Positions 42,254 to 55,094 of a stretch of DNA of 64,000 nucleotides are shown here, piece by piece. Position numbers and translations under genes: made by a program. The notes beneath the pieces were generated by a model. It saw only the letters and a program-made list of their open reading frames with translations. It did no database searches and had not been told where the DNA came from. Source of the DNA: Natronosalvus amylolyticus (lineage in GTDB: Archaea; Halobacteriota; Halobacteria; Halobacteriales; Natrialbaceae). Numbering within the stretch: the first letter of the stretch is position 1; each line of letters starts with the position of its first letter. Where the stretch lies: positions 372,001-436,000 of the forward strand of contig NZ_CP101156.1 of assembly GCF_024298845.1 (NCBI RefSeq), read 5' to 3'.

Positions 42254-42985
42254 CTAATCGACGACAGCAACGGCTCGAACCGGGGACCCGTCACCATCAG
42301 CTACTGCAAGCGGGAACGCCTGCACTTCGAACACTGCGTCAGTCGGGAGCGCCTCGAGTCCACGAAGGTTCTCGAGGAGGAGCCGGTCAGCTTCGAACAT
42401 GGTCTGGTGGAAGGGATACGTACCAGGTTCCTCATCATTCGTCCCAGAACTCTCATCGTTCGTACCAGGGCCCTCATCGTTCGGACCGGAGTCGTCATCG
42501 TCCGCTCCCGGCGTAGGGTCGACGTTCAACGCGTCGATACCGAGGTCGAGGTCGTTGGCGACGAGCCAGTCTCCGGCGTCTGCGGTCAGATACGGGTGTT
42601 CGAAGTACCGATCGGTGCCCCAGTACTCCGCCCAACCAGTGTAACAGAGAAGCAAGGACGCTGTCTCGAGTGCCGTTTCGGATACCGTCACCGCCTCAGT
42701 CAATCGATTCTCGTCGATCGGTGTTCTCGGCTCGAGTGGTCGACAGTCGGCGACGACGGCTCGAAACCGAAATCGCTCGAGGTCGATAGCTTCGATCGTA
42801 TCTCCATCCGGTCGCATGTGCGCGGGGGCGTCCATGTGCGTCCCGGTGTGTGAGGACAGTTCGAGCCTCGAGGTAGCGTACCCGTCCGATTCGATGGTGG
42901 CTGTCCGGCCGATTTCGACCGGTGGTGAGCCAGGATAGACAGTCATCCCCGTTTCGAGAGGATGTGACAGATCGTACAGCCTCAT
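42254..42985 (-). CDS. Cyclase-family (kynurenine formamidase-like) hydrolase with repeat insertion
   Basis: A 243-residue metal-dependent hydrolase. The hallmark is SSHTGTHMDAPAHM (the HxGTHxDxPxH motif), and the N-terminus is MRLYDLSHPLETGMTVYPGSP. Members hydrolyse N-formylkynurenine or other amides. A hydrophilic insertion of about 30 residues (around 160-190, three units of the [P/T]NDExx type) lies before YPFHQTMFEADRLLLENLRG. It is encoded by 21-bp units. The ATG at 42985 is the conserved start; the upstream open frame is not. Confidence 0.88.
   Translation of the reverse strand: MRLYDLSHPLETGMTVYPGSPPVEIGRTATIESDGYATSRLELSSHTGTHMDAPAHMRPDGDTIEAIDLERFRFRAVVADCRPLEPRTPIDENRLTEAVTVSETALETASLLLCYTGWAEYWGTDRYFEHPYLTADAGDWLVANDLDLGIDALNVDPTPGADDDDSGPNDEGPGTNDESSGTNDEEPGTYPFHQTMFEADRLLLENLRGLEALPTDAVFEVQAFPLAVADGDGSPVRAVAVVD
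42426..42500 (-). repeat. 21-bp tandem repeat inside the cyclase gene
   Basis: Three degenerate 21-bp units (42426-42446, 42447-42467, 42468-42488) and part of a fourth share the core CTCATCGTTCG. They encode seven-residue acidic units and keep the reading frame. They are more diverged than the cobQ units, so probably older. Confidence 0.8.
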
Positions 42986-43260
42986 GCGTAGTCTCGACTC
43001 GAGTCCGGATTGAACGTTGTGCTTTGCCTGTCGTGGATGAGGACATTGATACAACGACGGTAGCCAATGCTATGATAAATATATTAAATTGTTATGACAT
43101 GCATATTATTGCGGCTGTGGGACCCGATCCCTGTTCGTGAGATAGTTCGGACCGACACCGTCTACGGCGCACTATCAGCCACACCTGAACACCAGTGCTC
43201 ACACTCGAGCGACACGAATCCCTCACCTTTTTTGATCTCACATGCCGAGGCTCGGGATGT

Positions 43261-43986
43261 ATGTACAAGCACGTCGCCTTGCTGGTGCGAAAGGACGGGA
43301 TGAGCCACGAGGAGTTCGTCGACTACTGGCAACACAATCACACGCCTATCGCTCGTGATATCGAAGGTGTGGTTCGCTACCAGACGGTTGTCCCGACCGA
43401 ACCCGACCACGCCGAGTTCGATGGCCTCGCAGAGCTCTACTTCGAGACGCTCGAGGATCTCCACGACGCCCTCGGCAGTTCGGGGTCCCGGGATTACGAC
43501 CCAACCAGGGAGGTCGCCGCCGAGGCACGTGCTGACGTCGACAACTTCCTCGACCTCGAGGGCCGACCACGGTTCATCGGCGAGGAAATCGTTCAGAAAG
43601 ACGAAACAGATGGCGACACGACGGGGCTGTACAAACACTCCGCATTCCTGGTCCGACAGGAAGGGATGAGCCACGAGGAGTTCGTCGACTACTGGCAAGA
43701 GAACCACACGCCGATTGCCCGCGAAATCGAAGGTGTCGTCCGGTATGCGACGGTCCTGCCAGCGGATCCCGAGAACGCCGAGTTCGACGGCGTTGCCGAA
43801 CTCTACTTCGAAGACCTCGATGCGCTGTACGACGCACTGGGCAGTGAAGGCTCTCGAGATTACGACCCGGACCGTGGGAAGGCAAAGGAGGCTCGCGAGG
43901 ACGTCGATAACTTCCTCGCGATCGAAGATCGGCCACGTTTTATCGGACAGGAGACGCTACAGGTCGACCGGACGAGCGAGGACTGA
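43261..43986 (+). CDS. Tandem EthD-domain protein
   Basis: A 241-residue protein made of two near-identical EthD domains (residues 1-115 and 123-238), each with the pattern L-V-R-x-x-GMSHEEFVDYWQ-x-NHTPIAR-x-IEGVVRY and ending DNFLx-x-E-x-RPRFIG. The repeat period is 366 bp. EthD domains are dimeric ferredoxin-like folds, so the fusion would form both halves of a dimer in one chain. The function is unknown; single-domain relatives occur beside oxidation or degradation genes. The stop overlaps the next gene (TGATG). Confidence 0.88.
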   Translation: MYKHVALLVRKDGMSHEEFVDYWQHNHTPIARDIEGVVRYQTVVPTEPDHAEFDGLAELYFETLEDLHDALGSSGSRDYDPTREVAAEARADVDNFLDLEGRPRFIGEEIVQKDETDGDTTGLYKHSAFLVRQEGMSHEEFVDYWQENHTPIAREIEGVVRYATVLPADPENAEFDGVAELYFEDLDALYDALGSEGSRDYDPDRGKAKEAREDVDNFLAIEDRPRFIGQETLQVDRTSED

Positions 43987-45016: not shown

Positions 45017-45439
45017 ACGGATTGAACAGGTCTGGCCTCGAGGATGCGGATATGAGGGCGTCATAGAACACTTCTCACAGGACTCATTCCAACTGCGTTC
45101 GCAGGGAATAAGCCGATACATAGGTCTGCGAATAGAACACTACGAATTGTTGAGCATCCGCGAACGAAGTGAGCGGTTCACCGCCCGAGCGCGGTGCGTT
45201 CTGACGACACCAACGGGTTTTACCGGGGTTCGACCGAGTGAGCGAAGCGAACGAAGGAAGACCCCGGTAAAAGAGGTTGCTGTATTGAGCATTTTCTTGT
45301 AGCACTACAGAAATGGGTGAATTATTCTATGACATCCTCGATATAGCGTTGTGCGACAGACCCTCAAACGCCTCGGTTTGTCTGCCGCAACCGCAGAGTA
45401 CAGGTGTATCGACCGTCGTCTCTCGGACGAGCATCGAAG
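45017..45439. other. Gene-free stretch with a strong inverted repeat
   Basis: The 423-bp gap between the winged-helix gene and the MFS gene has no convincing frame. It holds the hairpin at 45218-45272 and two GAGC/GAAC-rich tracts (GCGAACGAAGTGAGC at 45160-45174 and GAGTGAGCGAAGCGAACGAA inside the loop). GAGC-rich strings of this kind recur in haloarchaeal genomes near repeats. Confidence 0.5.
45218..45272. repeat. 12-bp perfect inverted repeat
   Basis: TTTTACCGGGGT (45218-45229) pairs perfectly with ACCCCGGTAAAA (45261-45272) across a 31-bp loop. It is flanked by TTGAGCAT on both sides (about 45150 and 45285), so the unit may be a remnant of a mobile element or a structured terminator. Confidence 0.65.
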
Positions 45440-46822
45440 ATGTCCGACTCGAGTCCATCGTCGCGTTCGCAGACTGGCTCGAGACTGGCGTCACTCAGCG
45501 ACTTCGGGCGTTACGATGCCCTCGTCCTGACGGCCCTCATCTGGTTTCTCGCGAAATTCCTCCGATACGCGTTTCCCCCGCTTTTCGAACCACTGCAGGC
45601 AAGTTACGGCGTCTCGAACACAGTCCTCGGCCTGGCTTTTACCGGCTTCATGATAGTGTACGCCGCGATGCAGTTCCCCTCCGGCGTCCTTGCCGATCGA
45701 ATCGGCTCGATTACAGTCATTACGGGCGGCGTCGTTCTCGCCTCGAGCGCGGCGCTCCTGCTCGTTTTCGACAGCCCATTTCTCGTCCTCGTCGCCGCCA
45801 TGCTCGTCATGGGAGCCGGAACGGGTGCACACAAAACCGTCGCCGTTCGACTCCTGGCTCGAGCCTATCCCGCTCGCACGGGGCGTGCGCTTGGATTCTT
45901 CGACACGGTCGGCACCTTTGGTGGTGTCGCCGCCCCGATAGCTGTGGTTTTCGTCGCTTCCCTCTCAGTTGCGACCGTCTCGAGTTGGCGACTCGTTTTC
46001 GTGGCGGCCGGCCTCCTCGGCCTCGTGTTGGCTGGATTGTTCGTTACCCGCGCGCCCAGACGACTGGCGAACACGCCACGCCACGAGCGCGATGGCGACA
46101 GCCGGAACAGTGCCCAACCTGACGAAGCCAACGGTGACTCGAGCGAAGCGATGACCGAAACCGAGAACAACAACGCCGCGCCCTCGAGTACAGAACCGTC
46201 GACTCCCGGCCTTCGTCGGTACGCAACGCTGTTTCGAGACCCGCGGTTTTCGGCGTTCGTCCTGGCGACCATCTGTTTTTCGTTCACCTACAACGGCCTC
46301 GTTGCCTTCGCACCGTTATACATGACTGAGGAGGCTGGGCTCGAGTTGTCGACGGCAAACCTAATATACAGTGCGCTGTTTGCGGTCAGTCTGATCCAGC
46401 TTGTGACCGGCGAAATGGCCGATAGAGTGGGGTCGTTACCGGTAATCGTCACGTCGCTCACCGTTGCTTCGCTGGCGCTCATCGCGTTCGTCGGACTTAC
46501 GGGCGTCGGCTCTGCGCTCATCCTCGGCGGTGCACTCGTCGCCGTCGGGTTCGGATCGCACGGGTTTCGGCCCGTTCGGGGCGCCTATCTGATGGCCGCG
46601 GTCCCGCCATCCATCTCCGGGGGGAGTCTCGGTGTGGTGCGAACGCTGTTGATGGGAGCCGGAGCTATCGCGCCAGCAATTATCGGCTACCTCTCCGAGA
46701 CTGTCGGCTTCAGACCCGCCTTCTGGATCCTCGCCGCTTCGATCACCATCGCCACCTTGCTCTGTGCAACCCTATTGGTAACCGAGGGTTCGTCGTTCCG
46801 GCCCTCGAGCGAATCGACGTGA
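45440..46822 (+). CDS. Major facilitator superfamily transporter
   Basis: A 460-residue protein with twelve hydrophobic segments. The loop between helices 2 and 3 contains GVLADRIGSI, the MFS A-motif, and the equivalent loop after helix 8 has GEMADRVGSLP. The central hydrophilic loop (about residues 206-250) is long and Asn/Glu/Ser-rich. No substrate can be read. The ATG at 45440 is preferred over an upstream one at 45404. Confidence 0.9.
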   Translation: MSDSSPSSRSQTGSRLASLSDFGRYDALVLTALIWFLAKFLRYAFPPLFEPLQASYGVSNTVLGLAFTGFMIVYAAMQFPSGVLADRIGSITVITGGVVLASSAALLLVFDSPFLVLVAAMLVMGAGTGAHKTVAVRLLARAYPARTGRALGFFDTVGTFGGVAAPIAVVFVASLSVATVSSWRLVFVAAGLLGLVLAGLFVTRAPRRLANTPRHERDGDSRNSAQPDEANGDSSEAMTETENNNAAPSSTEPSTPGLRRYATLFRDPRFSAFVLATICFSFTYNGLVAFAPLYMTEEAGLELSTANLIYSALFAVSLIQLVTGEMADRVGSLPVIVTSLTVASLALIAFVGLTGVGSALILGGALVAVGFGSHGFRPVRGAYLMAAVPPSISGGSLGVVRTLLMGAGAIAPAIIGYLSETVGFRPAFWILAASITIATLLCATLLVTEGSSFRPSSEST

Positions 46823-47033: not shown

Positions 47034-50000
47034 TCAGGACCGACTGTAAACGACCCAGACGCCGAGTAAGAGGACGCCAACTACTATCGAAACGCTACCA
47101 ACAACCGTCTGCCCGGCGAGAAGCAGGCTCAGACCAGCGACGAATCCGGCTGCACCCCCGCCGACGGCCCCCGAAGTCACTGGCGTCGTATTTTCAGTTT
47201 CGCGCGTCTCCGCTGGCTGTTCAGCAACCCCCTCTTCGAGCGCTCGCACATCGCTTTGCAACGACTCGAGTGACGACACACGACCCTCGATGCCTTCGAT
47301 ATCTGCTGTCGCCGTCTGAATGTCTTCGATACGCGAGGATACCTCGTCGAGTCTGGTTTTTAACTCATCTTCGACATCGTCGAGTCTGCTTGCTACCTCG
47401 GAATCGGCGTCATCGAGCCGGTCGACAGATTCTGCCGTCGTTTCTTGCTCGACTTCGAGTGTATTCACTGTGTCCTCGAGCGTATCGAGTCGGGGGTCGA
47501 CCGACTCGTGTGTTACCAGCCTGTCGGGTTCGGGAACTCCGTCTTCGATTGACTCGACCTGTGTCTCGAGGTCGTTCAATCGCTCCGCGAGGCTCCCACT
47601 CCTGTTTTCGACGGCTTCGACCGTGTCCCGGATGTCCGATACGTTGTCTTCGCGTGTCTCACATTCCGTTGTGAGTTGTTCGACGGTCGCAGTTACCTCG
47701 TCGACTGCCGAGTGCTGGGTGGCAAGCTTTGAATCGATGGTTTCCTCCAGATCAGTGCGGGTCGACTCGAGTGCATCCCGTACCCCTTCGATGTCGGATT
47801 GGAGTGATTTGATATCCGTTTCGCGGGCCGTTTCGATATCGGCGATTGATTCCTCGACGGATTCGAGGTCGGTTTGTAGAACCTGGAGTGTACTCTCGAT
47901 GCCATCGATAGCTGCTGTCGCCGTCTGGAGATCTGCTTCGGTTGCGTATTCGGCTTCGACTGTGTCGAGATCCGACCGGAGTTGCTCGACATCTGTCTGT
48001 AACGTGTCGAGCTTCGATGTGACAGTATCGACGTCGTCGGTGACGCTCTCAACCTGTGATTCGATTCCCTCAGTCCGCTCGTTCGTCGTCTGGAGTGTCT
48101 CATCGAGGCCCGAGATCAACGCTTCGAGGTCAGCACGTTCTTGTTCACCTGTTGCCTCGACATCTGTGATCGATTCCTCGAGATGGCCGGTTCTATCGGT
48201 TAATTCGTCGGCTCTCTCGGCGAGGCGGTCGGTCTGTGCTTCGGTGTCTGATGCTTTCGTCTCGACAGCAGCAGTTCTCGCCTCGATGTCGTCCGTCTTC
48301 ACCTCGAGGTTTTCAGCCTTCGTCTCGATGGTCTCGGTTCTCTCCTCGAGGTTTTCAGCCTTCGTTCCGAGGGTATCCGTCGTCGTCTCGACATGGTCAG
48401 TTCGTGTTTCGAGGGTATCCGTTTTCGTCTCGAGACGATCTAACGCCTGGTGAAGAGCCGTTACCTCCCCACGTATCTCATCGACCTGCGTTTCGAGCGC
48501 AGCTACTTTTGACCCGACCGAGTCGACTGTTGACTCGAGGGCAGTGATACCTGCCTCGAACGTTGAAAGGTCGCTTTCGAGGGTATCGACGCTCGTCTCG
48601 AGTCCGTGCGCATCGTCACGAAGGGCTTCGTGGTCGTTCCGAAGGGCCTCGTGTTCTTTCTCGCGGGTTTCGAGGGCTTCTTCGACCGCTTCGAGCGTCG
48701 TTTCCACCGTCTCGAGATCGGACTGGAGCGTTTCGAGTTGCCCGTCGAGATCAGTCTTCGTCGCTTTGTAGTCGTCGAGGTGAGACTCGAGGCCAGCCGT
48801 CAGGTCGTCGATCTCCTCACCGAGAGATGTTGCAAGCGAATCAACGTCGGAGTCCAGCCTTTCGAGTGTTTGGTCGAGCGCTTCGATCTCCGCCATAGAG
48901 TCGGTTTTCAGTGTCTCGAGAGCGTCCTGTAACCCAGTTTCGGCAGCTTCGAGATCGCCGCGGAGCGCTTCGAGTGCCTCCTTTTCCGCATGGGTTTCTG
49001 CCTTCGTTTCGAGTGTATCGGCCCTGGTCTCGAGGGCGGAGAGTTCTGTTGTGATTGTTTCGACATCGCCTGAAACGTCTTCGAGTCCCGACCTGATGGA
49101 CTCGATTTCTTCGTCGCGCGACCCGAGTCGGTCGAACAACTGTGTGATGGCGTCATCGTTCCGCTGATGGTCGATGTCGCTGTCCATTTCGTCGAACGAC
49201 ACGCTCGAGGTACTTTCGAGGCCGCCCCCTCTGGCTGACTGCTGTACAATGGTTTGGTCCGTCCTGTCCTCGGTGGAGGCAGTCGAGTCGCCTGCTGTGG
49301 TTGCATCGGTCCCACCCGAGTTCGAGCCTGTTGTATCACCCCACGTAACCGCATCGAACGCGTCGACGCCATCAGCCGCGGCTGCGAGCGCCCCGCGAAC
49401 CGGACTCTCGGCTGGGTCGTTCGCGAGACGAACCCCACGTATCGAAAACGGAAGGTTTGCGGCATCGAACCGACCACCGAGAAGAAATTCGATCCCCTCG
49501 ATCGCTTCGTCACCCCCGACTGCAACGGGTACCGAAATCCCCTGTTGCAGGTCGGCTGCCTCCGCCTGTGTCGTGATGGCGTCGGCCAACTCGCCCGCGA
49601 GCGCGTCGTGAGCCTGGGCGAGCGCGCTTTCGACACCACCCGTTGCCGCACTCGGATCGAGCTGAAACCCCTCGAGAACCGATGCGACCTGGTCTCTCGA
49701 GTGGCCGGTTTTGCCGGCCGCTTGCTCGACGATCCAGTCAGTCCCCTTCGCCAGTGAAAATGCGAGAACGGGGACGCCGTAGTACGAGAGGGCGACACTC
49801 GTCGTCTGGGATTCGATACAGACGCCGAGTCCGGTCACATTTTCGTCCTCGAGTTGGTCGTAGATCACGGCAAATCCTTTGCTAATCGGCGTCCCATCGT
49901 ATCCCAGTCGCTCGAGGACGGCGGCGACAGACTCTCGGTGGGCGTCCGTCGGTTCCGTCACATCCACGAGGGTCCCGGGCGTGGTATACCAGACTCCATC

Positions 50001-50435
50001 GTCGCTAGCGTCTGTCGACGTGTCCGGGTTTGCCGACGTCTTTGCTCCGTCGTTCGAAGCGTCCGCTCCGTTGCTCGAGGTACCTGCTCCCTCTCTCGAG
50101 GCGTGTGACCCGTCGACGACGAATTCGATGAGTGACTCGAGAGCGGGTTCAGCATAGCCTCGAACGTCCAGAACTCCGTTGACAAAGAGTGGCGTGGCGT
50201 CGATATCGTTGGCAGTGGCCAGATCTGCGGCGTCTGATCCAAGAGCGTAGGTCGTCCCCTCGTACTCGATCGTACGGATATCCGTTGGTACTGCCTCATC
50301 CCCGTTGTGTTCTTCGCTACCCGATTCCCCCTCGAGGGCGAGTACAATCGCCGGTTCATCGGCTATCCTCGTCGTTGACCGCTCCCCAACGGCCGATCGT
50401 AGTGTCCCCGTTCCGATATCGAGACCGAATTCCAT
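47034..50435 (-). CDS. Actin/MreB-like head fused to a long coiled coil with a C-terminal membrane hairpin
   Basis: A 1133-residue protein. Residues 1-370 read as an actin-fold ATPase: phosphate-1 loop DIGTGTLRSAVG (6-17), an MreB-like IADEPAIVLAL strand, VNGVLDVRGYAEPALESLIEF, a phosphate-2-like region near TGLGVCIESQTTSVAL (201-216) and an adenosine-motif-like VAVGGDEAIEGIEFL (304-318). The phosphate-2 Asp/Gly residues are replaced, so ATP hydrolysis is not certain. A 40-residue Ser/Asn/Ala-rich loop (108-147) interrupts the domain. Residues 425-1070 are almost continuous coiled coil; about 660-750 is a run of near-perfect heptads (LETKTDT, LEERTET, IETKAEN). Residues 1088-1130 form two hydrophobic segments, a probable membrane hairpin. 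The ATG at 50435 begins MEFGLDIGTG; 48 codons of open frame upstream lack character. The function is not known. Confidence 0.8.
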   Translation of the reverse strand: MEFGLDIGTGTLRSAVGERSTTRIADEPAIVLALEGESGSEEHNGDEAVPTDIRTIEYEGTTYALGSDAADLATANDIDATPLFVNGVLDVRGYAEPALESLIEFVVDGSHASREGAGTSSNGADASNDGAKTSANPDTSTDASDDGVWYTTPGTLVDVTEPTDAHRESVAAVLERLGYDGTPISKGFAVIYDQLEDENVTGLGVCIESQTTSVALSYYGVPVLAFSLAKGTDWIVEQAAGKTGHSRDQVASVLEGFQLDPSAATGGVESALAQAHDALAGELADAITTQAEAADLQQGISVPVAVGGDEAIEGIEFLLGGRFDAANLPFSIRGVRLANDPAESPVRGALAAAADGVDAFDAVTWGDTTGSNSGGTDATTAGDSTASTEDRTDQTIVQQSARGGGLESTSSVSFDEMDSDIDHQRNDDAITQLFDRLGSRDEEIESIRSGLEDVSGDVETITTELSALETRADTLETKAETHAEKEALEALRGDLEAAETGLQDALETLKTDSMAEIEALDQTLERLDSDVDSLATSLGEEIDDLTAGLESHLDDYKATKTDLDGQLETLQSDLETVETTLEAVEEALETREKEHEALRNDHEALRDDAHGLETSVDTLESDLSTFEAGITALESTVDSVGSKVAALETQVDEIRGEVTALHQALDRLETKTDTLETRTDHVETTTDTLGTKAENLEERTETIETKAENLEVKTDDIEARTAAVETKASDTEAQTDRLAERADELTDRTGHLEESITDVEATGEQERADLEALISGLDETLQTTNERTEGIESQVESVTDDVDTVTSKLDTLQTDVEQLRSDLDTVEAEYATEADLQTATAAIDGIESTLQVLQTDLESVEESIADIETARETDIKSLQSDIEGVRDALESTRTDLEETIDSKLATQHSAVDEVTATVEQLTTECETREDNVSDIRDTVEAVENRSGSLAERLNDLETQVESIEDGVPEPDRLVTHESVDPRLDTLEDTVNTLEVEQETTAESVDRLDDADSEVASRLDDVEDELKTRLDEVSSRIEDIQTATADIEGIEGRVSSLESLQSDVRALEEGVAEQPAETRETENTTPVTSGAVGGGAAGFVAGLSLLLAGQTVVGSVSIVVGVLLLGVWVVYSRS

Positions 50436-50535: not shown

Positions 50536-50584
50536 TCGTCCGTTCGCGAAATTAGCTGTTGATACTCGTCCGTTCGCAAAATCA
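50536..50584. repeat. Two direct repeats upstream of the actin-like gene
   Basis: TCGTCCGTTCGCGAAATTA (50536-50554) recurs as TCGTCCGTTCGCAAAATCA (50566-50584), a 30-bp period. They lie about 100-150 bp ahead of the actin-like gene start and after the epimerase stop, so they may be regulator sites. Confidence 0.55.
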
Positions 50585-51750: not shown

Positions 51751-52599
51751 CTACTGGTCGGGTATGAGGACACTCGAGTCACCGACTTCGAGTTCGTCAC
51801 CCACAGCGAGTGTCTCACCCCAGTCTGATTCCGGAACCTTCGTGTTGACCATCAGGCGGAAGTAGTGGTCGAACCACGCCGTATTCGCCCATTCGGGTAG
51901 CGTGGCTTCTCGTTGAGAGACGAACGTCTCCTGAAAACCCGGCGTCCGTTCACCGGTATCGGGATGGCGAGTCGGCACCACACACCGTTGGCAGGGATTG
52001 ATTCCGTACAATCGAGTTGTGCCGATGCTGAACGGTATTGCACGCCCCGGTTTTTCGTAGAGTTGGTCCTCCCAGAACGCCATCGGTGTGCTCACCTCGA
52101 GATTCGCCCGCAAACGCCGTCGCATCTCGGTGACGTCGATGTCGTCGAACCAGGCGGAAACGGCCTCGAGCGTTTCCGTCGAGATGAGCGTGGGTCCGGA
52201 TGCGTCAGTGTCGTCCGGATAGCCACCTTCGTCGTCACGGACGAGGGAAACTTCGTAGCCGAAGAAGTCGGTGAGCCAGGACTCGAGTGTCTCACGATCC
52301 TCCTCGAGGTGGAACGTTTGTGTAGTTCCTTCAGCGTCGGTTCGGCCTTGGGTGTTGGCTCGTCCCTCAGTTATCGGGGTGGTTCCGATGGTGACCGTCA
52401 TCCGGTCCAGGTCGTAACTCGCTCGTAATCGATGAATCGAACGCTCCCGTTTCCCGTTGACATACTCGCCCGACGAATCGAGGATTGCGTACCGACGGTC
52501 CCACTCCAGAGCACCGTTTTCGACGAGCGTCGCGTGTTCGACCGGTGTCGGATCGAGTGATTTGATCGGGTGGACGAAGATTCGCTCGAGGTGGGCCAT
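51751..52599 (-). CDS. MOSC-domain molybdenum-cofactor protein
   Basis: A 282-residue protein. The N-terminal beta-barrel is LERIFVHPIKSLDPTPV and the MOSC domain carries the conserved Cys in INPCQRCVVPTRHPDTGE. Proteins of this kind (mARC-like or YiiM-like) bind molybdenum cofactor and reduce N-hydroxylated compounds or move sulfur. The enzyme partner is not visible nearby. Confidence 0.9.
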   Translation of the reverse strand: MAHLERIFVHPIKSLDPTPVEHATLVENGALEWDRRYAILDSSGEYVNGKRERSIHRLRASYDLDRMTVTIGTTPITEGRANTQGRTDAEGTTQTFHLEEDRETLESWLTDFFGYEVSLVRDDEGGYPDDTDASGPTLISTETLEAVSAWFDDIDVTEMRRRLRANLEVSTPMAFWEDQLYEKPGRAIPFSIGTTRLYGINPCQRCVVPTRHPDTGERTPGFQETFVSQREATLPEWANTAWFDHYFRLMVNTKVPESDWGETLAVGDELEVGDSSVLIPDQ

Positions 52600-52825: not shown

Positions 52826-54760
52826 CTACTCGTGTAAGCCACCGACCTCGTCGTAAAACGAGGACGAAAGCTGATCAGCCATCTCCTCGTCGGGGTCGAT
52901 TCTGACGTCCACGACCGTTGGGACGTCAGCCCTGGTCGCTTCGGAAATCGTGCGCTCGAGGCCATCAGATTCGGTGATTCTGACGCCGTCACCACCCATC
53001 GCTCGAGCGATGGCGACGAAATCCGTATCGTGGAACGTGGTGCCTGGGATCGCATCGTCCATCTGTCGCACCATCCCCAGCGAGCGATCATTGAGGATGA
53101 CGAAGGTCGGGGCGACGCCACAGTCGACCGCCGTCTCGAGTGCGGTCATCGTCATCGTGAACCCGCCGTCCCCAGCAACGCAGATAGCGTCCTTACCGAG
53201 CAGTGCAGCGGTGACGGCAGCGGGGGCTGCCCAGCCCATCGCCCCGACGCCACCGCTTCCGTAGTAGCTCCCGGTGGTCGGTACCTGGAGGTAGTTCAGC
53301 AACCAGAATCTGTTGTTCCCCGAGTCAGCGGTGACGACGGTCTCCTCGTCCATAACGGCCTCGATGGCCTTACACACCTGCTGTGGTTTGATCGGACCTT
53401 CGTCAGCTGGTTCGGTTTTCTCGGACGTCACCTCGAAGTCCTTTCGTGCGGTTGCCGCTCGCTCGAGCGCCCAGCTTTCGCCGTTTTCGTTCGTCGCTGT
53501 CGGCGCATCAGCAGCCGTGGCAGTTGACGCAGCATCAGTCGTAGGGGTCACAATCCCGCGGTCCGCTGCGTTCTCGAGTAGTCCAGCGAGGGTTTGGCCC
53601 GCATCACCGATCAGGCCAACATCGGCCGGATAGACCCAACCGGCGTTTCTCGAATCGATATCTGCGTGGATGATCGTCTGCTCGTCGGGTCGAATGAACG
53701 ATGCCGCTTGCCAGTTGGTATCCATCGGGTTCAGTCGACAACCGACCACCAACAGCACGTCTGCCTCGCTGACGACCCGATTAGCGCCTTCGTGCCCGAA
53801 CGACCCAATGACGCCAGCTGCTCGTTCGTGTGTCTCCGGTATCGTCGATTTGCCGAGATACGACGTGGCGACGGCAGCATCGAACGTCTCAGCGACATCG
53901 ACGAGGAGGTTGTACGCATTTCCTGCAGTCGAACCTGTATGCGTTTCCTCACCTGCCGAGTCGTTGTCACTGCCGACGCCGTCCCCGGCCGTCCCATCCT
54001 GGGTCCCTGCACTCGAGTGGACGCCGTTCCCGGCCAGAATTACTGGCCGATCGGCCTGCTCGAGGGCCTTCACCGCCGTCTCGAGGTCCGAGTCAATCGG
54101 TCTCGAGCGCCAGTTTTGGACCTGTTCTTTGTCGTCCCACAGTCCAGGTGTCTGACCGGTCTCGAGATCGTCAGTGATCGCCGACCCGTCGAAGATGACC
54201 GCACAGGGCCCATTTCGTCCAGCAGTCGCGTGTTTGAAAGCCAGTTGAACGCTTCTGACGGTTTCGTTTGGGGTCCGGGGGAACCACCACTCCTTTGTCA
54301 CCCCGTCCAGTATTTTTGGGAGCGAGAGACCACCGTAATCTCCCCGAGCCTGTTGGTACGGTGCGAGCGTCGAGTAATCGCCGCGTTCTGAGGCCTCGGT
54401 GAGGACGACCATCGGCGAGGAACCGAGTCTCGCTTCCATCTGCCCAATCGTCCCGAGACTACCAATCCAGGGCCCCTGTCCGGCGAGAACGGCTGGGGAC
54501 CCAGTCATGCGACCGTAAGCTTCGGCCATCACGCTCGCCTCGCGTTCGTCTCTCGGCCTGACCACAGAAATATCAGTCTCGCGATGCCCAATCGTCTCGA
54601 ACACTTCGATGATACGGCCCCCGGGGTAGCCGAATACGAACTCGACGTCGAGTGCCTCGAGAGTGTCTACGACACGTTCTGCGGTCGCTTCTGTGTATGT
54701 AGCTGCTTCGTTTTCCGCTGCTTGCGTTGTTTGCTCGTCAGGGCGTTCGCTATCGGTCAT
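52826..54760 (-). CDS. Thiamine-pyrophosphate enzyme, acetolactate-synthase type
   Basis: A 644-residue protein with the three-domain layout of acetolactate synthase-like enzymes. The N-terminal PYR domain has FGYPGGRIIE and the catalytic Glu in RPRDEREASVMAEAYGR. The middle domain has VILAGNGVHS. The C-terminal PP domain has the TPP/Mg motif AGDGGFTMTMTALETAVDCGVAPTFVILNDRS. Two low-complexity insertions (near 255-280 and 400-430) are lineage-specific. It overlaps the EthD gene by 11 bp, so the pair are co-translated. It is not next to ilvN or ilvC, so a branched-chain role is unlikely; a 2-keto acid decarboxylase or oxidase-like role is possible. Confidence 0.85.
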   Translation of the reverse strand: MTDSERPDEQTTQAAENEAATYTEATAERVVDTLEALDVEFVFGYPGGRIIEVFETIGHRETDISVVRPRDEREASVMAEAYGRMTGSPAVLAGQGPWIGSLGTIGQMEARLGSSPMVVLTEASERGDYSTLAPYQQARGDYGGLSLPKILDGVTKEWWFPRTPNETVRSVQLAFKHATAGRNGPCAVIFDGSAITDDLETGQTPGLWDDKEQVQNWRSRPIDSDLETAVKALEQADRPVILAGNGVHSSAGTQDGTAGDGVGSDNDSAGEETHTGSTAGNAYNLLVDVAETFDAAVATSYLGKSTIPETHERAAGVIGSFGHEGANRVVSEADVLLVVGCRLNPMDTNWQAASFIRPDEQTIIHADIDSRNAGWVYPADVGLIGDAGQTLAGLLENAADRGIVTPTTDAASTATAADAPTATNENGESWALERAATARKDFEVTSEKTEPADEGPIKPQQVCKAIEAVMDEETVVTADSGNNRFWLLNYLQVPTTGSYYGSGGVGAMGWAAPAAVTAALLGKDAICVAGDGGFTMTMTALETAVDCGVAPTFVILNDRSLGMVRQMDDAIPGTTFHDTDFVAIARAMGGDGVRITESDGLERTISEATRADVPTVVDVRIDPDEEMADQLSSSFYDEVGGLHE

Positions 54761-55094
54761 CGTCCGACTCCGTATCGGCTTCGTTCAGGTGGACCGTTTC
54801 GTCGACGATGAGCGTCTCACTCTCGTCCATGTCGATAAACGTCGCCGCGTCTTCTTGCACCTCCTGTCCGATTTCCGAATCGAAGGCGTCACTGAGCGTT
54901 TCGTGGTCGGGGAACTCTAGCTGAACGATGCCATCGTAGCTGGCGTATTCCGGACTCGTCGGTACTGACGTCGCGTATCGCTCGAGGCCAGGGAGCCGTT
55001 TTGCGATTTCGATGTGATCGCCCTGCCAGCGCTCGAGGAACGCCTCGTGGTCGAGATCGTCGTTCCGAACCAGTAAATTTACGAACGTGACCAT
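54750..55094 (-). CDS. EthD-domain protein, single domain
   Basis: A 114-residue dimeric ferredoxin-like protein. It has the EthD pattern NLLVRNDDLDHEAFLERWQGDHIEIAKRLPGLERYA, here described by residues 6-41, and the strand IVQLEFPDHETLSDAF. It ends with an acidic tail. It is the first gene of an operon with the TPP enzyme and may channel or rearrange an intermediate; the function is unknown. It is related to the double-EthD protein at 43261 but not closely. Confidence 0.85.
   Translation of the reverse strand: MVTFVNLLVRNDDLDHEAFLERWQGDHIEIAKRLPGLERYATSVPTSPEYASYDGIVQLEFPDHETLSDAFDSEIGQEVQEDAATFIDMDESETLIVDETVHLNEADTESDDDR

Follow-up and report, generated by a model that had tools for sequence, protein, structure and literature searches.

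Gene structure and genomic context

The window, a stretch of 64,000 nucleotides from Natronosalvus amylolyticus, encodes a protein with an actin-fold head, a coiled-coil stalk and a C-terminal hydrophobic hairpin (Table 1). An earlier note on this DNA, made from the sequence alone, had the coordinates of the open frame exactly right and omitted that it lies on the minus strand; the actin landmarks that it quoted were all found in the translation, in the same order. The frame runs from an ATG at 50435 to a stop at 47034. Upstream it continues without a stop as far as a TTG at 50579, and the start was placed at 50435 because relatives align from there and a conserved block precedes it.

Table 1. 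Coordinates of the stalked volactin gene and its features in the window.
Feature	Position	Strand	Basis or remark
Stalked volactin paralogue, 1133 aa	47034..50435	minus	Translation; homologous long frames in 75/101 genomes of family
Actin-fold volactin head, residues 1-355	49371..50435	minus	PF25216, AlphaFold2 model, fold alignments
Phosphate-1 loop DIGTG, residues 6-10	50406..50420	minus	Alignment
Lys186 codon, aligned with MreB catalytic Glu	49878..49880	minus	Alignment columns; Glu in 40/40 plain volactins
Degenerate phosphate-2 loop VCIESQTTSV, residues 205-214	49794..49823	minus	Alignment; plain volactin has ISFGAGMTNV
Adenosine-motif region AVGGDEAIEG, residues 305-314	49494..49523	minus	Alignment; 1 residue shorter than plain volactin
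Conserved linker motif VSFDE...DDAITQLFDRLG, residues 412-438	49122..49202	minus	Recurs in family as LSFDE, then DDAIDQLFDRL
Coiled-coil stalk, residues 439-1085	47181..49121	minus	Heptad periodicity
C-terminal Gly-rich hydrophobic hairpin, residues 1086-1131	47043..47180	minus	Hydropathy; AGGGGAGVVAGG...TM in 38 distinct tails
Promoter/operator-like block TTTTCACATCTGGTATTC...CAAA...CAA	50461..50493	minus	~58 bp before ATG; conserved in relatives

The upstream block, which can be written TTTTCANNTCTGGTA..C with a CCAAA...CCAAGAGG part, stands at -57 to -59 in 49 of the 56 distinct Natrialbaceae sequences compared and carries 1.43 bits of information per base, versus 0.29 in the adjacent upstream flank. 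Even when up to 3 mismatches are allowed it has no second copy in the genome, which suggests that it is a putative element for dedicated control of the stalked gene.

A chance frame is ruled out by the orthologues, the conserved motifs, the upstream element and purifying selection, and separate genes read as one are ruled out by the recurrence of the same fused frame in 75 genomes of the family. Between two Natronosalvus copies of the gene, dN/dS is 0.18 for the head, 0.41 for the stalk and 0.36 for the hairpin; with purifying selection on every part, the gene is not decaying. We conclude that the stalked volactin is real and conserved.

The gene is flanked by genes for an MFS transporter (45404-46822) and a MOSC protein (51751-52599), both kept in approximately 18-20 of 32 named loci, and in some relatives an epimerase gene is also a neighbour. 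A functional gene cluster was considered and set aside, the MOSC/MFS synteny being stable and without obvious functional link. Elsewhere in the window, genes for two EthD-domain proteins (43195-43986 and 54750-55094) lie near those for a TPP enzyme (52826-54760) and for a putative cyclase (42254-43054), and may form a degradation cluster with them.

The head is a volactin with an actin fold

Residues 1-353 match the Pfam family Volactin (PF25216) over the entire profile (1-321 of 321) with an E value of 8e-112 and 374 bits, the curated cut-off being 35 bits. The AlphaFold2 model of the head has an actin fold (pLDDT 90.5, pTM 0.88); an initial model, built on 26 fused heads, reached only pLDDT 63, and 90.5 was obtained once diverged volactins were added. 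Full-length fold alignments of this model returned MamK (Z 27.4), BeeR (25.9), MreB (~25) and crenactin (24), with FtsA and PilM also among the matches. For MamK and MreB, identity in these alignments is approximately 16-17%. A profile search of the PDB with 77 relatives reached MreB by sequence alone (E 1e-5), and BeeR and FtsA more weakly.

The actin-like head proposed in the earlier note is therefore borne out by profile and model alike, and no non-actin fold was predicted. The note did not give the known family name, volactin. Of the actin-family profiles, which it had suggested for a check, PF25216 matched the head, and the MreB profile PF06723 gave no match to it at E values up to 1. Across the genome, the sole match to PF06723 is an Hsp70 protein. 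An MreB identity for the head was dropped for lack of a PF06723 match; unlike MreB, the stalked form also has no mre neighbourhood.

The stalked head belongs to the known volactin family, and the stalked form itself is a novel variant. It groups by sequence, fold and tree with VolA (HVO_2015, PF25216; PMC10869688). VolA-type proteins are single-domain proteins of approximately 325-365 residues (341 in this genome) with neither stalk nor membrane segment, whereas the stalked form has 1133 residues. Two motifs, GGRFDAAxLPFS and GFAVxYDQ, are invariant among stalked heads. A second haloarchaeal actin, salactin of Halobacterium salinarum, has a canonical actin fold and a disordered, charged N-terminal tail, and forms filaments that extend from the cell poles (PMC10746226). 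Salactin and the stalked form are both haloarchaeal actin-fold proteins, but as far as its published description goes salactin has no coiled coil or membrane segment (PMC10746226). No description of a stalked or fused archaeal actin was found in the literature searched, preprints and subscription papers being outside its scope.

Linker, stalk and membrane hairpin

The head is joined to the stalk by a low-complexity linker that carries the conserved motif seen in relatives as LSFDE, then DDAIDQLFDRL. From this motif to the Gly-rich tail the stalk spans approximately 648 residues. Its hydrophobic periodicity at 3.5 residues is 1.95 (0.18 +/- 0.05 in shuffles), its heptad score is 208 (91 +/- 5 in shuffles), and approximately 80% of its a and d positions are hydrophobic. 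At 0.1485 nm per residue the stalk would span approximately 95-96 nm if continuous. The coiled coil of about 640 residues and 95 nm described in the earlier note was thus recovered, with imperfect continuity: there are nine register shifts, and prolines cluster at 968, 970 and 981, so that the stalk is likely to bend.

Among 34 complete sequences the median stalk has 641 residues, and the extremes are 135 and 889 residues, or approximately 20 and 132 nm. The short version, with 135 stalk residues (~20 nm), was found in Halopiger djelfimassiliensis and a genome of the same family (loci L077 and L138), so stalk length is not fixed. Stalk and hairpin recur across relatives despite this variation.

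Two hydrophobic segments, 1089-1107 and 1111-1129 by hydropathy, close the protein, in agreement with the membrane anchor that had been proposed for it. A basic residue is among the last five positions in 31 of 38 distinct tails. The small turn between the segments and the lack of a signal peptide suggest that both ends of the protein are cytoplasmic.

Distribution and evolutionary origin

A profile of the stalked head was searched against 391 genomes of the class, 101 of them from the same family, with counts taken from the listed matches. The long stalked form is present in 75 of the 101 family genomes and in 20 of 26 genera, in frames of 649-1564 residues; the named relatives with a stalked form in this family are all Natrialbaceae. 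Five genomes from two further haloarchaeal families (loci L129-L133) encode proteins of 775-878 residues that resemble this form in head, stalk and hydrophobic C-terminus. Head and stalk thus occur together in 80 genomes, and the fused architecture is not peculiar to one host. In a phylum-wide sample, every volactin from methanogen families that covers the profile is plain, and no stalked form was found in the sampled methanogens.

The genome under study encodes one other volactin, absent from the earlier note: a separate gene for a plain volactin of 341 residues, unlinked to the stalked gene at a distance of approximately 445 kb. All 80 genomes with the stalked form (80/80) also encode a plain volactin. 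Since nearly every genome of the family has a plain volactin anyway, this pairing is weak evidence for a link between the two.

A phylogenetic tree places all stalked heads in one clade (support 100/99), next to or within the haloarchaeal volactins, and separates the stalked heads plus haloarchaeal volactins from those of methanogens (100/100). The stem branch of the stalked clade is 0.5, a strong divergence from plain volactin. Separate fusion events in the families f7 and f10 are disfavoured against one origin by an AU test in which the Natrialbaceae forms were forced apart from the other stalked forms (p 0.02), with the reservation that the branches are long. The simplest history that the sequences suggest would be a single duplication plus fusion within haloarchaea, followed by losses or transfer. 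A viral origin was rejected, as a PHROGs search with the head gave no match and a plasmid search gave only four records, each less than 60% identical.

Active-site residues

In the alignment, the column of the MreB catalytic Glu holds Glu in none of 55 stalked heads, versus all of the plain volactins compared (40/40); the volactin Glu was equated with the MreB residue by motif and position, and its catalytic role is accordingly putative. Lys (22 heads) and Arg (18) are the commonest replacements, followed by Thr (7), Gln (3), Pro (2), Ser (2) and Ala (1). VolA-type proteins combine this Glu with a GAG[ML]T phosphate-2 loop, which is found in all plain volactins compared, whereas the stalked form here has Lys186 and VCIESQTTSV. 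The degenerate phosphate-2 noted earlier extends to nearly all stalked heads. In Natrialbaceae stalked forms the loop is mostly xQTT, and the adenosine region is one residue short. The three f7 forms lack the Glu and retain a GxGT-like phosphate-2 loop, and represent a possible intermediate state. Retained in the stalked heads are the phosphate-1 DxG, in most members, and a nearly invariant Thr212. Judged from these residues, the stalked form is best read as a membrane-tethered volactin paralogue that is probably impaired in ATP hydrolysis.

Proposed role of the stalked volactin

Volactin of Haloferax volcanii forms filaments and promotes the rod-to-disk transition (PMC10869688). Its filaments bridge the cytoplasm and contact the membrane by their tips only (PMC10869688), so a tip anchor is needed. 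We tentatively favour, with a little less than even confidence, a role for the stalked form as a membrane-tethered paralogue by which volactin filaments are anchored or capped some way off the membrane. The hairpin would act as the membrane anchor, and the coiled coil would oligomerise the protein and hold the head up to approximately 95 nm away. The head, presumably cytoplasmic, no longer has the residues expected to place the water for attack and to hold the phosphates, and its ATP hydrolysis would be slow or absent. It would most likely attach to plain volactin filaments, at their ends or along their sides, or join them as a non-hydrolysing subunit, and the filaments would thereby be anchored to the membrane. 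A normal, dynamic volactin in the same cells as a putatively non-turnover head on a membrane stalk is best read as this pairing of filament with anchor or cap. The unlinked position of the two genes counts against it. The stalked form would also not be required for tip anchoring in general, because Hfx. volcanii anchors its volactin tips with only one identified actin homologue (PMC7617734).

The earlier note had proposed a scaffold for cell shape, division or DNA organisation, considered here in its active, ATP-driven form. The phosphate-1 DxG and Thr212 that the heads retain would suit such a protein, but the family-wide change at the catalytic Glu, which is absent from 55 of 55 heads examined, favours an anchor or cap over a dynamic ATPase acting on its own, and we regard the active scaffold as very improbable. 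Spiroplasma MreB3, which lacks the catalytic motif, still polymerises, with slow phosphate release, and is a proposed membrane anchor for MreB1/4 filaments (PMC9597168), a precedent for the anchor reading. Like the stalked form it has lost catalytic residues beside active paralogues; unlike it, MreB3 is single-domain, has no stalk, and replaces Glu by Asp (PMC9597168), whereas stalked heads mostly carry Lys or Arg. The stalked head might likewise assemble with itself, without plain volactin, into slow and stable filaments that are linked to the membrane as a brush or cortex, and its fold is closest to the filament formers MamK, BeeR and MreB. A long stalk on each subunit would crowd such a filament, however, and the alteration of the phosphate-1, phosphate-2 and adenosine loops makes nucleotide-driven assembly doubtful; we consider this outcome unlikely.

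FtsA and PilM are membrane-linked actin-fold proteins and possible adaptors, and they reach the membrane via short helices or partners. The stalked form differs from both in its long coiled coil with a hydrophobic hairpin as the route to the membrane. Its head could nevertheless act outside any actin polymer, as a PilM/FtsA-like adaptor for another partner, with the stalk as an envelope or nucleoid spacer. The head's own invariant motifs and the long stem branch fit such a function, while the fully kept actin fold and the restriction to genomes that also encode plain volactin do not, and we rate it as rather unlikely.

The stalked form is a directly testable candidate for the way in which archaeal actin filaments attach to the membrane: it is widespread and conserved, seems to be deficient in catalysis, and combines an actin-fold head with a stalk and anchor of its own. 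If the anchoring reading is true, archaea would offer an example in which an inactive actin serves as a tether beside an active one. That haloarchaea evolved, on a single occasion, a specialised pseudo-actin carried by a long membrane stalk to capture the tips of their own actin filaments is conceivable, if on balance doubtful; anchoring of this kind was not found described for actins in the literature searched.

A second candidate for membrane attachment lies beside plain volactin, which usually adjoins a DUF7139 gene, whereas the stalked gene has epimerase, MOSC and MFS genes as neighbours. DUF7139 proteins are multi-span membrane proteins with a charged tail. In most of the haloarchaeal loci examined, their gene immediately precedes the plain volactin gene on the same strand, and they could be a membrane partner and general anchor of plain volactin. 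Given such a general anchor, the stalked form would be an extra, long-reach one. The DUF7139-plain volactin pairing also occurs, at a greater distance, in some methanogen loci. In locus L002 the DUF7139 gene (PF23600; 153-1076) and the plain volactin gene (1174-2199) lie on the same strand, with DUF7139 upstream.
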